Below, one piece after another: positions 26,391 to 60,354 of a DNA stretch of 64,000 bases. A program made the position numbers and the translations under genes. The notes below the pieces were generated by a model, which saw only the letters and a program-made list of their open reading frames with translations, was not told the origin of the DNA and searched no databases. The stretch comes from Chloroflexus aurantiacus J-10-fl (GTDB lineage: Bacteria > Chloroflexota > Chloroflexia > Chloroflexales > Chloroflexaceae): NCBI RefSeq assembly GCF_000018865.1, contig NC_010175.1:3844001-3908000 (forward strand), given 5' to 3'. Positions within the stretch are counted from its first letter, which is position 1. Every line of letters begins with the position of its first letter.

Positions 26391-27439
26391 GTGCCCCCCT
26401 TGATTACACAAAAACGAGACAGCGGCATACTCCCTTGTATGGCGTCATGACAGTACGATCTCACCTCCTTACCCGGAAAACAGAACAGAAATCCCCCAGG
26501 TACAGGCTATGCCGTGTACCCTGAATATTTGTTCTTTGCTGACCTACCACGAACGATGTTTATTGTAATAGAAACTCCGTAAAGTTTCAAGAGGTTAACG
26601 GTTGGCTAATCAAATTGTTGAGATCAATAGATGAAAAATTATTTATTCGTTTAATGAAAAGTTTGTCATAAACCGTTTTGAGCTTAACGTAATCGTAGGC
26701 TTTCATTTCTACCGGTATCCACGTATTGGGTTGGCTGCTACGCGGTGATCCTGTTTCGCGGTTGGCAATCTCACATAATGGTACGTTGTCTATACGCATG
26801 ATCTACGCCGGCAATATTGGGTGTGTAGAATTGATCTCATTGACCCCGGGAACGTGCACCGCCGGCTCGCCTTGCTATGCATTACCCACATGTCACCAGG
26901 CAGTCGGTATGCCCCCTCATAGCACATCGTGCTGGAAACGGCGCATCGTTCATCACGCACACCAGGCAGTCATGGGTTCCGCAACGTCCTGCTCCCCGCC
27001 GGCAGGTCAGCCCTGCGGTCGTGCGGGCTGATGCCCTCCCTCACGACGTGGTGGCCCCGCTGCGGCTACTCATGTGTGCGCATGGCACCTGCTCCCCGCG
27101 GGCAGGCCAACCCCGCAGGGGCTTCAAGGAAGTGAGGCAGGGTTGTAACCCGCCGACTCGCCGGCGATCACCCCCACTCCCGCATGCGAGCTATGCAGTA
27201 TTCGAGTTATGGGTAATGCATAGGCCTCGCCTTGACCCTGGGAGCGCGCGTCGCCGGCTCGCCGACTTCGTCGGTATCTCTCCTTCACACTTCTAATATA
27301 TTGCTAACACAGCGCTGATGACTATCTAACATCGGTTTTTTATCTACAAAGACGTACACCTTTTGCATCATCATCGCTGCATCGGCCCGACGCAGAGCGC
27401 TGCGCCGATGTACGTTGACGATCAAGGAGGTGGTGTGCC
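26391..27439. other. Gap: AT-rich leader, then GC-rich repeat debris
   Basis: No supported gene. 26540-26720 is AT-rich and likely holds the subtilisin promoter on the minus strand. 26840-27263 is bounded by direct repeats of about 32 bp (26840-26872 and 27232-27263, TGACCCYGGGA...GCCGGCTCGCC) and by inverted copies of CTATGCATTACCC (26875-26887 and, reversed, 27211-27223). This looks like the remains of a repetitive element. 27380-27425 contains CATCGGC/GCCGATG arms of a possible leader hairpin before doxX. Confidence 0.5.
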
Positions 27440-33616: not shown

Positions 33617-34220
33617 GGTTGGCCCAATATGGCGTGCGGCAGCCATGCTGCCGCGAGTGCTCCTCCGCCAGGCCGGTCAGTGCAGGATGGCCTGTGCTAG
33701 CCACCTTGCTGTACCCACCTCCTCACCGCCGAACGCATCTCACACCGGCCACGCGAACAACGTGTACGCCAAAAATGCCCTGGCAGCGAAATGATTGCCG
33801 TTTTTGGAGTGCGGCAGCCATGCTGCCGCGAGTGCTCGTCCGGCAGGCGGGTCAGCGCAGGATGGCGTGTACCGGCCACCCTGCCGCCCCCCCTCCTCAC
33901 CGCCGAACGCATCTCACACCGGCCACGCGAACAACGTGTACGCCAAAAATGCCCTGGCAGCGAAATGATTGCCGTTTTTGGAGTGCGGCAGCCATGCTGC
34001 CGCGAGTGCTCGTCCGGCAATGCGGTCAGCGCAAGTATGGCGTGCGGCAGCCATGCTGCCGCGAATGCTCGTCCGGCAATGCGGTCAGCGCAAGTATGGC
34101 GTGCGGCAGCCATGCTGCTGCACCCACCGTCCTCCGTCCACACAAACAACCTGCCCGCCATGCACCACCTGCCACGCCGTGATTGCCGTCTTTGGCGTGT
34201 GGCAGCCATGCTGCTGCACG
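33617..34220 (+). repeat. REP hairpin array 1 (left of RAYT)
   Basis: Six copies of the hairpin GCGGCAGCCATGCTGCCGC begin at 33636, 33811, 33985, 34044, 34103 and about 34199; the last two are imperfect. Spacing is about 174 bp for the long unit (C-run, 'CCTCCTCACCGCCGAACGC', 'CGTGTACGCCAAAAATGCCC', 'GATTGCCGTTTTTGGAGT', then hairpin) or 59 bp for the short unit (CAAGTATGGCGT before the hairpin). Open frames across it are repeat artefacts. Confidence 0.9.
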
Positions 34221-34419
34221 CCAAACTGGCGCTACGTGCATTCGTGAGGCAGCACGGGTGCCCTGCAGCGATGCCCACCGTCTCAGACATCGGGGCCGAC
34301 GACGCAGATGTGCTACTTGGCACGGTGGATGCAGCAGCGATGCTGAGATAGGCAACGATACCGTTCAAGGACCAACGTCCATATCAGGCTTTGGCTGAGA
34401 CTATTTCTCCTGGATCACA

Positions 34420-34974
34420 TCAACAACAATGTACCTCTGGTACATCGATGTTGTCATACGGTATCGTTGCTAGTTTCCTTCGCAATGCATCTGGAGCACG
34501 TTCGTTAAACCATGTAGCTGAACAGAAGGGATACTGCTCGGCACTCGCGACTAGCCCGTGTTTGACAGGGTTGTTGTGAACATAATTCAGGCGTGCCAGG
34601 TAACTTTGTTCATAGGTTAGACAAGTATCCCAGTATTGAAACCAGACCTTGCGACCTTTACTCCCATCCAAAACATTAATCGCTCGTGCAGTTTGAGAAT
34701 GAAACCGTTGGATAAGGGGCTTTAACGAGCTGCTATCTTCAGGCGACTGAGCAATAAAGTGGTAGTGATTGGAGAATACAGCCCATGCTTGTAATCGCCA
34801 ATTGTATGCTTGCATAATCTCGAAGAGAGTACTTTGCAGGATATGCAATTTCTGTGGTGAGTTGAACAAGGGCTGATGGCATAGCGTAGAAGCCGTGACG
34901 ATGTAAAACGCATTTGGCACAAAGAGGTGTGCTGGACTGTGATGCCACGTGATCATGCTGGTATCTTGTTCCAT
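34420..34974 (-). CDS. REP-associated tyrosine transposase (RAYT, Y1/HUH, IS200-like fold)
   Basis: 184 residues from the ATG at 34974; a second in-frame ATG lies six codons on. The HUH motif is visible as 'VFSNHYHFIAQ' (His-Tyr-His), and the family's C-terminal 'LNYVHNNPVKHGLV' holds the likely nucleophilic Tyr. RAYTs nick single-stranded hairpins of REP repeats and are usually single-copy genes flanked by their REPs, as here: hairpin arrays lie on both sides. The coding stretch is noticeably more AT-rich than the arrays. The frame is intact, so it may be active. It has no mobile-element ends of its own that I can see. Confidence 0.88.
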   Translation of the reverse strand: MEQDTSMITWHHSPAHLFVPNAFYIVTASTLCHQPLFNSPQKLHILQSTLFEIMQAYNWRLQAWAVFSNHYHFIAQSPEDSSSLKPLIQRFHSQTARAINVLDGSKGRKVWFQYWDTCLTYEQSYLARLNYVHNNPVKHGLVASAEQYPFCSATWFNERAPDALRRKLATIPYDNIDVPEVHCC

Positions 34975-35094
34975 AACATCGGCTTGTCAACCTGCACAGT
35001 TCAGGGGTGCATACTTGTTCGACAATCAGAGTATATCACCTGACTCCTGATGCACGAACACTATCTTACCACCCGTGACAGCCAGATAGCCGGT

Positions 35095-37566
35095 CAGTAG
35101 AGTATGGCGTGTGCCGCCCCCCTCCTCACCGCCGAACGCATCTCACACCGGCCACGCGAACAACGTGTACGCCAAAAATGCCCTGGCAGCGAAATGATTG
35201 CCGTTTTTGGAGTGCGGCAGCCATGCTGCCGCGAGTGCTCGTCCGGCAGGCGGGTCAGCGCAGGATGGCGTGTACCGGCCACCCTGCCGCCCCCCCTCCT
35301 CACCGCCGAACGCATCTCACACCGGCCACGCGAACAACGTGTACGCCAAAAATGCCCTGGCAGCGAAATGATTGCCGTTTTTGGAGTGCGGCAGCCATGC
35401 TGCCGCGAATGCTCGTCCGGCAATGCGGTCAGCGCAAGTATGGCGTGCGGCAGCCATGCTGCCGCGAGTGCTCGTCCGGCAATGCGGTCAGCGCAGGATG
35501 GCGTGTACCGGCCACCCTGCCGCCCCCCTCCTCACCGCCGAACGCATCTCACACCGGCCACGCGAACAACGTGTACGCCAAAAATGCCCTGGCAGCGAAA
35601 TGATTGCCGTTTTTGGAGTGCGGCAGCCATGCTGCCGCGAATGCTCGTCCGGCAATGCGGTCAGCGCAGGATGGCGTGTACCGGCCACCCTGCCGCCCCC
35701 CCTCCTCACCGCCGAACGCATCTCACACCGGCCACGCGAACAACGTGTACGCCAAAAATACCCTGGCAGCGAAATGATTGCCGTTTTTGGAGTGCGGCAG
35801 CCATGCTGCCGCGAATGCTCGTCCGGCAATGCGGTCAGCGCAAGTATGGCGTGCGGCAGCCATGCTGCCGCGAGTGCTCGTCCGGCAATGCGGTCAGCGC
35901 AGGATGGCGTGTACCGGCCACCCTGCCGCCCCCCCTCCTCACCGCCGAACGCATCTCACACCGGCCACGCGAACAACGTGTACGCCAAAAATGCCCTGGC
36001 AGCGAAATGATTGCCGTTTTTGGAGTGCGGCAGCCATGCTGCCGCGAGTGCTCGTCCGGCAGGCGGGTCAGCGCAGGATGGCGTGTACCGGCCACCCTGC
36101 CGCCCCCCCCCTCCTCACCGCCGAACGCATCTCACACCGGCCACGCGAACAACGTGTACGCCAAAAATGCCCTGGCAGCGAAATGATTGCCGTTTTTGGA
36201 GTGCGGCAGCCATGCTGCCGCGAGTGCTCGTCCGGCAATGCGGTCAGCGCAGGATGGCGTGTACCGGCCACCCTGCCGCCCCCCCTCCTCACCGCCGAAC
36301 GCATCTCACACCGGCCACGCGAACAACGTGTACGCCAAAAATGCCCTGGCAGCGAAATGATTGCCGTTTTTGGAGCGCGGCAGCCATGCTGCCGCGAATG
36401 CTCGTCCGGCAATGCGGTCAGCGCAAGTATGGCGTGCGGCAGCCATGCTGCCGCGAGTGCTCGTCCGGCAATGCGGTCAGCGCAGGATGGCGTGTACCGG
36501 CCACCCTGCCGCCCCCCCCCTCCTCACCGCCGAACGCATCTCACACCGGCCACGCGAACAACGTGTACGCCAAAAATGCCCTGGCAGCGAAATGATTGCC
36601 GTTTTTGGAGTGCGGCAGCCATGCTGCCGCGAGTGCTCGTCCGGCAATGCGGTCAGCGCAGGATGGCGTGTACCGGCCACCCTGCCGCCCCCCCCTCCTC
36701 ACCGCCGAACGCATCTCACACCGGCCACGCGAACAACGTGTACGCCAAAAATGCCCTGGCAGCGAAATGATTGCCGTTTTTGGAGTGCGGCAGCCATGCT
36801 GCCGCGAATGCTCGTCCGGCAATGCGGTCAGCGCAAGTATGGCGTGCGGCAGCCATGCTGCCGCGAGTGCTCGTCCGGCAATGCGGTCAGCGCAGGATGG
36901 CGTGTACCGGCCACCCTGCCGCCCCCCTCCTCACCGCCGAACGCATCTCACACCGGCCACGCGAACAACGTGTACGCCAAAAATGCCCTGGCAGCGAAAT
37001 GATTGCCGTTTTTGGAGTGCGGCAGCCATGCTGCCGCGAGTGCTCGTCCGGCAGGCGGGTCAGCGCAGGATGGCGTGTACCGGCCACCCTGCCGCCCCCC
37101 CCTCCTCACCGCCGAACGCATCTCACACCGGCCACGCGAACAACGTGTACGCCAAAAATGCCCTGGCAGCGAAATGATTGCCGTTTTTGGAGTGCGGCAG
37201 CCATGCTGCCGCGAATGCTCGTCCGGCAATGCGGTCAGCGCAGGATGGCGTGTACCGGCCACCCTGCCGCCCCCCCCTCCTCACCGCCGAACGCATCTCA
37301 CACCGGCCACGCGAACAACGTGTACGCCAAAAATGCCCTGGCAGCGAAATGATTGCCGTTTTTGGAGTGCGGCAGCCATGCTGCCGCGAATGCTCGTCCG
37401 GCAATGCGGTCAGCGCAAGTATGGCGTGCGGCAGCCATGCTGCCGCGAGTGCTCGTCCGGCAATGCGGTCAGCGCAAGTATGGCGTGCGGCAGCCATGCT
37501 GCCGCGAGTGCTCGTCCGGCAATGCGGTCAGCGCAAGTATGGCGTGCGGCAGCCATGCTGCCGCAC
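35095..37566 (+). repeat. REP hairpin array 2 (right of RAYT), 19 hairpins
   Basis: The hairpin GCGGCAGCCATGCTGCCGC begins at 35214, 35388, 35447, 35620, 35794, 35853, 36027, 36203, 36377, 36436, 36612, 36787, 36846, 37019, 37194, 37369, 37428, 37487 and 37546, all in one orientation. Intervals are 173-176 bp (11 times) or 59 bp (7 times). The 1-3 bp variation in the long interval comes mainly from a C-run of changing length. Copies are nearly identical, with recurrent single-base variants (GAGTGCTCG/GAATGCTCG; CAATGCGG/CAGGCGGG). Frames of up to 360 codons through it are artefacts. Confidence 0.95.
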
Positions 37567-37668
37567 TGGACTTTGGCCCTTTCTGGGAGGGACGTGCCAT
37601 GCGGGTACCAGCATGGTATATGGTATCGTACAAGGTTATGACCACGACTAGCAGCCAGGAGGCACGCG

Positions 37669-38250
37669 ATGCCCAGGAAGCAGTCCCCCACCCCCACGGC
37701 CATGGTTCCGGTGGTACTCGCCACCCTGATGCAGATCATCGCGGCCCACCGCCCGGCATGTCGCCAGGAGCGGACATTCCGGCGGGCGGTGGCGCTGCTG
37801 GTTGGCGAGCTGGTTGCGTTTGCCAGGCACACCGTCACCCAGGTGCTGCTCGCGCTCGGCAAGCCCGACACGGACGGGACGGCGTGCTCCCGCCTGGTCA
37901 GTCGGTCACGGTTCGACGAAGCGACCCTGACCGCGGGTCTCGTTCGTGAGACGCTGAAGCGGAGTTCCAACTACGACCCCGCTGTGGTCGGGATCGACAG
38001 CACGCAGACTCCGCGACGCAGGCTGACCCTTCCCGGCACGAGGTGGGTGCACGCACGCCGCACGTGGGGATGGATCCGTGGGCCCACCCGACCAGAACGC
38101 TGGTGGCGGGGCGCACAGCGGTGGCGTTTCACCACGTTGTGGCGCAGCTACCGGGCCGCCCTGTGGGGCACGGCGGAATGTCGGTCGCTTTGGACGACGT
38201 CCACGGACGATTGGCTGAAAAAAAGAGCACACGATCATCGCCCTGACCAA
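37669..38250 (+). pseudogene. Degenerate DDE-type transposase remnant
   Basis: The frame begins well (CAGGAGGCACGCG ribosome site, ATG at 37669), with a helical N-terminus 'TFRRAVALLVGELVAFARHTVTQVLLALG' and then 'YDPAVVGIDSTQTPRRR', 'LPGTRWVHARRT', resembling the first catalytic-Asp strand of IS4/IS701-like transposases. After about residue 130 it decays into low-complexity Arg/Trp-rich sequence, while another frame (38043-38246) carries transposase-like 'MGARTPHVGM', which implies a frameshift. The sequence is GC-richer than its surroundings. It abuts hairpin array 2. Family placement is tentative. Confidence 0.5.
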
Positions 38251-38400
38251 CGCCGCACGCGCGGCGGCCAGGGCGTAGGGGGGCCAGCGGCCTTCTCACC
38301 CCCCAAACGACCCATCCACCAGCACGCAACCGAGAGTCACCAGCATCTGCTCCCGACTCTCGTCATCCCTCCTGCGTCCACGAAACAGCCAACCTCCAGT

Positions 38401-38419
38401 GCGGCAGCATGGCTGCCGC
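38401..38419 (-). repeat. Isolated REP hairpin, reverse orientation
   Basis: GCGGCAGCATGGCTGCCGC is the reverse complement of the array hairpin, followed by ACTCCAAAC, the reverse of the TTTGGAGT lead seen in the arrays. Confidence 0.85.
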
Positions 38420-38445
38420 ACTCCAAACTGCGCGACACGGCATGA

Positions 38446-38918
38446 CGAGCGGGTACGGCAATCCATCCAGCACGTGCTGGCACGGCTGGAGCGGTGCACT
38501 GCCACCGGGCTAGTCGCCCACAACAGCACCCCTAGCGATCATACCCGCTGATACGCACGTGGTTGACACCAGTCATGGGTAATGCATAGCCGCGACCGCG
38601 ACAATGAGGGTCAACGGCGTACCACGCGCAGGATCGTAAGCACGGCTGCTGCGGCAGCATGGCTGCCGCACTCCAAACGTTGCGACAAGCGCGTGACGAG
38701 CGGGCAAGGCAACCCTCCAGTGCGTGATGTCACGACTGGAGCTGCTCTCTGCCAACAGGACAGGGGTGATTGCCAAGCGTTCATGCACTTGGGCGACAGT
38801 AGCACGATAGCACAGCTTTTATGAAATGAGTTCTACTTACATCTTACCCACGAGTTCTGCCCGGCAACGTATGCACTGACATACCTGCTACAAGCACATC
38901 TGTAGAGAAAAGGAAGGA
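38446..38918. other. Gap holding truncated repeat elements
   Basis: No gene. It contains CTATGCATTACCC in reverse (38577-38589), a truncated TIR element (about 38595-38835) and a partial similarity to the same element at 38440-38500 (GACGAGCGGG...CCAGCACGTG). Confidence 0.55.
38595..38835 (-). mobile_element. TIR element, copy 2, truncated at its inner end
   Basis: In reverse orientation, 38835 downward begins TAGAACTCATTTCATAAAAG, the same terminus as the elements at 12142 and 57033. It contains a perfect REP hairpin (38651-38669). The opposite terminus is missing; similarity fades near 38595 next to the CTATGCATTACCC motif. Confidence 0.6.
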
Positions 38919-57032: not shown

Positions 57033-57424
57033 TAGAACTCATTTCATAAAACGCTGTACTGTCATGCTCTAACAACCATCTCCGGTGCCATCATGCGCTG
57101 GATTGGTTGCCTTGCTCGCTCATCATGCGCGTGCCGCGAAGTTTGGAGTGCGGCAGCCATGCTGCCGCGCCAACCATGCTCCCGATCTGGCACGTGTCAG
57201 GTCGTTGACCCGGCTGGTCACGCGAATGCCAGGTGTGCTCGTCTCGATCATGCATGGAATCGGTCGGCAATGAATGAGATACCTTTATAGTAAATGTTTT
57301 GGCTCATGTTCAAAAGTGGTGCAAACGGTCAATCATCGGGGTTTATTGCGGCACAAGGACAAGTATGAGTGTACCCTATTGCACCGAGTTTGAACATGAG
57401 CCAATGTTTTTGAAACAGGTTCTA
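57033..57424 (+). mobile_element. TIR element, copy 3, containing REP hairpin and a nested insertion
   Basis: The left end TAGAACTCATTTCATAAAA and right end (minus strand) TAGAACCTGTTTCAAAAAC match the element at 12142. A perfect REP hairpin with its TTTGGAGT lead lies at 57150-57168. Without the nested 102-bp insertion and its 8-bp duplication, the element is 282 bp. Its last three bases form the stop codon of the pseudo-receiver gene on the minus strand. Confidence 0.65.
57301..57402 (+). mobile_element. 102-bp MITE with 14-bp TIRs and 8-bp target duplication (ISL3-like)
   Basis: GGCTCATGTTCAAA (57301-57314) is repeated exactly inverted at 57389-57402, with a further GGTGCAA match inside. 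AATGTTTT flanks it on both sides (57293-57300 and 57403-57410). GGCTC... termini and 8-bp AT-rich duplications are hallmarks of the ISL3 family. No coding capacity, so it would be mobilised in trans. It is inserted in the TIR element 57033-57424. Confidence 0.85.
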
Positions 57425-59201: not shown

Positions 59202-59229
59202 GTAGGGGCATGGCATGCCGTGCCCCTAC
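59202..59229. repeat. Hairpin repeat GTAGGGGCA...TGCCCCTAC
   Basis: A near-perfect 28-nt palindrome with a GGCATGCC centre; same outer edges as the hairpins at 12772 and 13019. Confidence 0.65.
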
Positions 59230-60159
59230 GCCGACGGCAACTCGTCAGCGACGCGCTGGTGGCATACCTGAACAATGGCTACGTGTGTTGTTGCGTCATC
59301 CCTGCCCATAACTGCTATACATTACCCACATGTCGCGTTGCGTTAGGCTGGGCTACAAGTGCTCCTCGTGTCGGTACCCCGTGGCGCAGGCTTCCAGCCT
59401 GCGTGGAGGCATCCTCTCCACCGCCGTCAAGTGCTGGCTGTGGCCGTTGGTGTACAGGCACGAATCTGGTGCAACAACACGTCTACGCGCAGGTATCGCA
59501 TTCACACCTGACCGACTCGATGGTCGTCACGAACACATCCAGCATCCCCGTGACCAGGATGGGGAACGGCGTACCACGCGCCGGATCGTGAGCACGGCTG
59601 GCGCGGCAGCATGGCTGCCGCACGCCAAACCCTGCGACACGCACATGATGTGCGCGTAAGGCAACCCATCCAGCACGTGATAGCACGGCGCCCCTACGCC
59701 GACGGCAACTCGTCAGCGACTCGCTGGTGGCATACCTGAACAATGGCTACGTGTGTTGTTGCGTCATCCCTGCCCATAACTGCTATACATTACCCACATA
59801 TCGCGTTGCGTTAGGCTGGGCTACAAGTGCTCCTCGTGTCGGCACCCCGTGGCGCAGGCTTCCAGCCTGCGTGGAGGCATCCTCTCCACCGCCGTCAAGT
59901 GCTGGCCGGTGGTTGGTGTACAGGCACGAATCTGGTGCAACAACACGTCTACGCGCAGGTATCGCATTCACACCTGACCGACTCGATGGTCGTCACGAAC
60001 ACATCCAGCATCCCCGTGACCAGGATGGGGAACGCCGTACCACGCGCCGGATCGTGTGTACGGCTGGCGCGGCAGCATGGCTGCCACAATCCAAACCCTG
60101 CGACACCCACATGATGCGCACGTAAGGCAACCCATCCAGCACGTGATAGCACGGCTGGA
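59222..60159 (+). repeat. Two tandem copies of a ~468-bp unit
   Basis: The segment starting GCCGACGGCAACTCGTCAG at 59230 restarts at 59698, and both copies run in parallel through CTATACATTACCC (59315, 59783), GGCGCAGGCTTCCAGCC, 'GTACCACGCGCCGGATCGTG' and a reverse REP hairpin (59603-59621 perfect; 60069-60087 imperfect) to 'CCCATCCAGCACGTGATAGC'. They differ by scattered substitutions and a small deletion, so the duplication is not very recent. Confidence 0.8.
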
Positions 60160-60354
60160 GCTGCGCACTTAATAAAGTTGCAAAAATACGCAGGTGGGTC
60201 TAAGGCATTACGCCACATTCGCGCTGCCATCGTGGTCGGGTTGTAACAACTGTCGTGAGGGAAGGAGGTTGACGTCTGGGTTCATTATTTGCGACACCAT
60301 TCGTCTATCAACGGTACCGATCTTTGCGAATAGCGTACACGCCGCCGGGTTGCA

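Follow-up and report, generated by a model that had tools for sequence, protein, structure and literature searches.

The hairpin arrays and the tyrosine transposase gene that lie together in Chloroflexus aurantiacus J-10-fl are best explained, with a probability that we put at about 75%, as a REPtron whose REP bears a GGAG tag and is also carried as cargo by a MITE-like element with terminal inverted repeats (TIRs), the array itself having arisen by local tandem growth. The window, i.e. the whole stretch of 64,000 nucleotides that was analysed, covers positions 3,844,001-3,908,000 of the genome of this photosynthetic hot-spring bacterium, which has 5,258,541 bases in one contig (the same size is given for C. 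aurantiacus J-10-fl in PMC3150298). The proposed REPtron would consist of one REP-associated tyrosine transposase (RAYT) and its REP, made up of TTTGGAGT and the 19-nt hairpin GCGGCAGCCATGCTGCCGC.

From its sequence, the gene at 34420-34974 (minus strand, 184 aa) can be firmly assigned to the RAYTs, i.e. to the Y1 HUH transposases that resemble TnpA_REP. Its product scores 110.8 bits with the curated NCBIfam model NF047646 (‘REP-associated tyrosine transposase’; cut-off 80) and 23 bits with the Pfam family Y1_Tnp, and it contains both the HUH motif H70-Y-H72 and the catalytic tyrosine motif Y131-V-H-N-N135. The nearest solved structure is 4ER8, the E. coli TnpA_REP (phmmer, E 7e-7), with which the HxH and Y-xxx-N motifs align and by which the predicted fold is fixed. 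The original prediction of an intact tyrosine transposase proved correct, as the reading frame has no internal stop; it is also the sole RAYT match in the genome. The intact frame, together with the relatives in other Chloroflexus genomes (60% identical), argues for a working protein as the predicted product, and the dN/dS of 0.55 between two of these other Chloroflexus RAYTs corresponds to weak constraint. No close relative was found when plasmids and viral contigs were searched. A perfect 12-bp inverted repeat, CAACGATACCGT/ACGGTATCGTTG, is present around the 3′ end of the gene (34353-34364 and 34458-34469), and the stretch GGTATCGT near 37620 resembles it.

Scanning of the window located 25 copies of the hairpin at 33636-37564, 23 exact and two degenerate, while 0.08 matches with up to three mismatches would be expected by chance in the whole window. 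All of them are on the plus strand, six on one side of the RAYT gene and 19 on the other, in agreement with the number, the single orientation and the near identity described originally. The left array (33636-34217, plus strand) contains exact hairpins starting at 33636, 33811, 33985 and 34044, and degenerate ones starting at 34103 (one mismatch) and 34199 (two mismatches); the right array (35089-37564, plus strand) contains 19 exact hairpins, from 35214 to 37564. Counted over the whole genome, as had been proposed, GCGGCAGCCATGCTGCCGC occurs in 309 exact copies versus none for the reversed control. With this number of 19-nt copies and a conserved module of 28 nt, the repeat falls within the usual description of REPs (palindromic, 20-40 bp, more than 100 copies). 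Its foot is not the catalogued GT[AG]G; it is GGAG in most copies, and GGCG in nine of the 25 hairpins of the array. A comparison with Rfam gave no match, and a plasmid search found no array DNA. A replication-strand bias of hairpin orientation was considered and rejected, being weak (30 plus and 38 minus on the left, 38 plus and 25 minus on the right; Fisher p 0.08).

Sequence comparison makes it likely that the hairpin is the REP of the adjacent RAYT, as had been presumed. In bacterium HR30, a RAYT whose protein is 60% identical is flanked by the identical hairpin, so that a REP-RAYT pairing is likely, and this RAYT also lies beside a tandem array, with units of about 197 bp. When tagged hairpins were counted with the pattern GGAGTGCGGCAG-n-CTGCCGC, in which palindromic sites can be counted on both strands, four Chloroflexus genomes with this RAYT contained 292, 271, 190 and 43, and four genomes of the genus without it contained 4, 0, 0 and 20. 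In the sister species the loop and the middle of the stem differ, and each RAYT is tightly flanked by its own version of the hairpin. A RAYT would be expected to lie between inverted REPs; in C. aurantiacus the gene has hairpins on both sides, but in one orientation only, and in contrast to the sister species the closest ones, which are degenerate, are separated from it by at least some 200 bp.

Exact hairpins, mostly tagged, are also present in two Sumerlaeota drafts (at least 59 in DG2.163 and at least 38 in SKW40), and no RAYT of the clade discussed below was found in either; the hairpin can therefore exist without a RAYT of that clade. Such an occurrence in genomes lacking this RAYT had been named beforehand as a refuting observation, and these drafts, with their dozens of tagged copies, do point that way in part. 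Position-by-position conservation in the Sumerlaeota sequences extends little beyond CTTTGGA-T, the hairpin and TTT, as in a plain REP. The tag in these drafts (loci L001-L118) is GGAGT or GGACT, and the dozens of copies often form inverted pairs about 70-105 bp apart.

About 1,190 genomes of Chloroflexota, Planctomycetota and the phylum to which bacterium HR30 belongs, together with a single genome of Lysobacterales, supplied relatives of the RAYT, for which the adjacent hairpins were read and a tree was built. The clade containing the C. aurantiacus RAYT (17 sequences) mixes Chloroflexota, Planctomycetota, the phylum of HR30 and the Lysobacterales genome. Flanking hairpins tagged GGA(G/A/C)T were read in 16 of these 17 members, the remaining one being ambiguous. 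Outside the clade, GT[AG]G was read at nine loci, and GGA also occurs at others. The HR30 RAYT is nested among the sequences from Chloroflexus (support 100/96), and from this position the RAYT gene of the GGA clade appears to move between phyla.

Catalogued REP tags are GT[AG]G, near variants of it, and CGTC (PMC3733652, PMC6006769). No GGAG tag was found in the REP literature searched, including the catalogue of PMC3733652, which names T. roseum and in which Chloroflexus appears only through the phylum name. By analogy with E. coli TnpA_REP, the C. aurantiacus RAYT would bind the single-stranded hairpin and read the tag as a guide, and the guide of this clade would be GGAG. In E. coli, R104 is reported to contact GTAG, and it is conserved in the GTAG-type subclasses. 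The equivalent residue is Arg in all nine GT-flanked relatives and Thr in C. aurantiacus, and is Thr throughout the clade with one Lys. Replacement of Arg by Thr as the sole determinant of GGAG was nevertheless rejected, because Arg is kept at the GGA-tagged loci L333, L341, L347, L349, L359, L360 and L364; this residue is at most part of the tag switch. At locus L185 of a Lysobacterales genome (G088), another RAYT-like gene lies between arrays of GGTACGCGGACCCATGGTCCGC, many of them at 37-bp steps.

The flanks of the hairpin in C. aurantiacus are conserved far past the length of a REP. Elements were mapped in 2.45 Mb of sequence, corresponding to 47% of the genome. Alignment of the copies yielded a consensus of 465 bp whose 14-bp ends, CTATGCATTACCCA, are perfect, and inside which the hairpin is fixed at offset 171. 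The consensus folds into one long stem; as only perfect hairpins had been selected by the search, compensatory changes in the hairpin stem were given no weight. The features by which MITEs are recognized are present: exact TIR ends number 127 in the 2.45 Mb, against 0.02 expected, and a 9-bp target site duplication (TSD) is exact in 6 of 29 cases (0.2 expected) and agrees at seven or more of the nine positions in 10 of 29 (about 1 expected). In the same sample, 30 of the 89 declustered hairpin loci have both TIR ends and 48 have at least one. A further 21 contain the core of the element without TIRs and 17 the hairpin alone, three of the latter belonging to the array of the window; these two groups imply that other modes of spread exist. 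It is well supported that the dispersal of the hairpin in C. aurantiacus has occurred mostly through the MITE-like TIR element rather than by movement of solo REPs. On this view, the REP would have been taken up into the element and dispersed along with it by a transposase that recognizes the element ends.

Several pieces of the element are found in the window. Its 5′ part (consensus 1-190) lies at 38401-38589 on the minus strand with 90.5% identity, bearing the hairpin at one end and the TIR TGGGTAATGCATAG at the other. Core pieces with the hairpin occur at 38596-38763 (minus strand, consensus 77-245) and 57085-57284 (plus strand, consensus 107-302), and two tandem copies with a period of 466 (consensus 90-465) occupy 59315-60169 on the minus strand; the tandem pair with this period at 59222-60155 has the variant end CTATACATTACCCA. 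The ends CTATGCATTACCCA also bound elements that have unrelated interiors and no hairpin, such as an element of 349 bp at 26875-27223, in which the 14-bp TIRs are those of the 465-bp element. The interior of this 349-bp element is matched by a diverged copy near 2.539 Mb and by an internal tandem array near 1.193-1.195 Mb. The 47% of the genome that was sampled yielded no autonomous element bounded by the 14-bp TIRs. An ORF of 258 aa at 37669-38445 looks like a relic of a DDE transposase, with related fragments at about 2.048, 0.235 and 3.552 Mb; it was rejected as a candidate for the element's autonomous transposase, having no Pfam or NCBIfam match and no TIR on its other side.

A different element has apparently been involved in another Chloroflexales genome (G028), where most of the 20 hairpin copies adjoin the ends of an element of about 180 bp, TTAGAGGCTGTCTGAAAAG...CTTTTCAGACAGCTTC, both ends being exact in six hairpin copies. 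On balance we are inclined, if only slightly, to the more general view that REPs of the GGAG-guided RAYT clade have been captured repeatedly as cargo by unrelated TIR elements, so that two transposition systems would serve the hairpin, and REP copy number would be uncoupled from RAYT activity.

As regards the array, its hairpins start two kinds of tandem unit, namely 13 units A, each about 175 bp long and on average 97.1% identical, and nine units B of 59 bp (99.2%), in the order A A B B [96] [RAYT] A B A A B A A A B A A B A A A B B B. Since the hairpins are the start points of tandem units, the array is a composite satellite and not a set of 25 independent hairpins. A genome search found the 96-nt spacer of unit A in 14 copies at this locus and elsewhere only as a diverged partial match at 3.609 Mb. 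Array and 465-bp element share exactly 28 nt at 100% identity, i.e. TTTGGAGT, the hairpin and G (consensus 164-191; for example at 33803-33830, plus strand), and this restriction to tag and hairpin marks the REP as a discrete module. Other arrays in the genome, none of them next to a RAYT because the genome has a single one, are built from other units, comprising bases 1-239 (12 units), 1-373 (nine units) and 1-243 plus flank (four units) of the element; each starts at base 1 of an element end and is closed by a full copy. The tandem arrays at 2.112, 3.002 and 3.832 Mb have units that start exactly with base 1 of the TIR element, as might be expected if these arrays had been seeded by nested or one-ended insertions. 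The presence of arrays with other units elsewhere indicates that tandem growth is a general habit of these repeats, and local tandem amplification is a well-supported origin for the 25-copy array. It would have grown by unequal recombination, the simplest cause, or by slippage between REPs in direct repeat, rather than by 25 insertions.

An explanation that we regard as unlikely is that the RAYT mobilizes single hairpins and has in this way directly given rise to both the array and the 309 copies. Such mobilization would account for the adjacency of gene and hairpin, for their correlation across the genus, for the sister species, in which the hairpins beside the RAYT vary in their loops and no TIR element accompanies them, and for the roughly 14 hairpin-only loci outside the array of the window. 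However, 48 of the 89 sampled loci sit in the element with its TIRs and 9-bp TSD, the array spacer is unique to its locus, and arrays with other units are found far from the RAYT. These same facts tell against the original suggestion that the array and the copy number reflect amplification driven by the RAYT.

Rather improbable, in our opinion, is that the hairpin is solely a part of the TIR element, its position near the RAYT being due to coincidental debris and the two forming no functional pair. Most hairpins are indeed within the element, element debris adjoins the locus (38401-38763), and the decay of the tag to GGCG in part of the array would be understandable. Yet, beyond the 28 nt of tag and hairpin, the array has none of the other 437 bases of the element, and GGA-tagged hairpins have been kept beside the gene in other phyla, with an identical one in HR30. 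It is very improbable that the array is a satellite with a function of its own (as a transcription terminator, or as a site for gyrase or the nucleoid), maintained by selection in the interval that separates the aminotransferase gene from its neighbour. Although its hairpins are strong and intergenic, its units are homogenized and such roles have been described for BIMEs (PMC2817692), similar arrays occur at unrelated loci with unrelated units, and there is no Rfam match.

Read as a REPtron whose REP also travels in a TIR element, the locus resembles the REPtrons of E. coli, Pseudomonas and Stenotrophomonas (PMC2817692, PMC8266576, PMC6006769) in having a single Y1 HUH gene flanked by abundant tagged hairpins; in Stenotrophomonas, the RAYT Smal4 also abuts a BIME array. 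RAYT-REP pairs were known beforehand, as the original prediction stated, and so were clusters next to RAYTs (PMC2817692, PMC3733652). That of C. aurantiacus differs from those REPtrons in that GGA(G) replaces GT[AG]G as the tag, the R104-equivalent is Thr, and most of the REP copies are inside a TIR element. The short tagged palindromes recall the GTAG and CGTC REP families (Di Nocera et al. 2013, PMC3733652), from which the GGAG tag sets them apart. The 465-bp element is similar to bacterial MITEs such as RUP, NEMIS, Nezha and ERIC, being non-coding, bounded by TIRs, associated with target duplications, present in high copy number and folded into one long stem. It differs from them in that its interior includes, always at one place, a whole REP of the RAYT type, which is absent from other C. 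aurantiacus elements with the same TIRs.

The number of REPs in a genome is often read as a record of RAYT activity. Most copies in C. aurantiacus bear the marks of a different transposition system, and REP number can therefore mislead as a measure of that activity. The GGA clade, for its part, would represent a natural change of guide from GTAG to GGAG, accompanied by candidate changes in the protein, and makes guide recognition by RAYTs testable.
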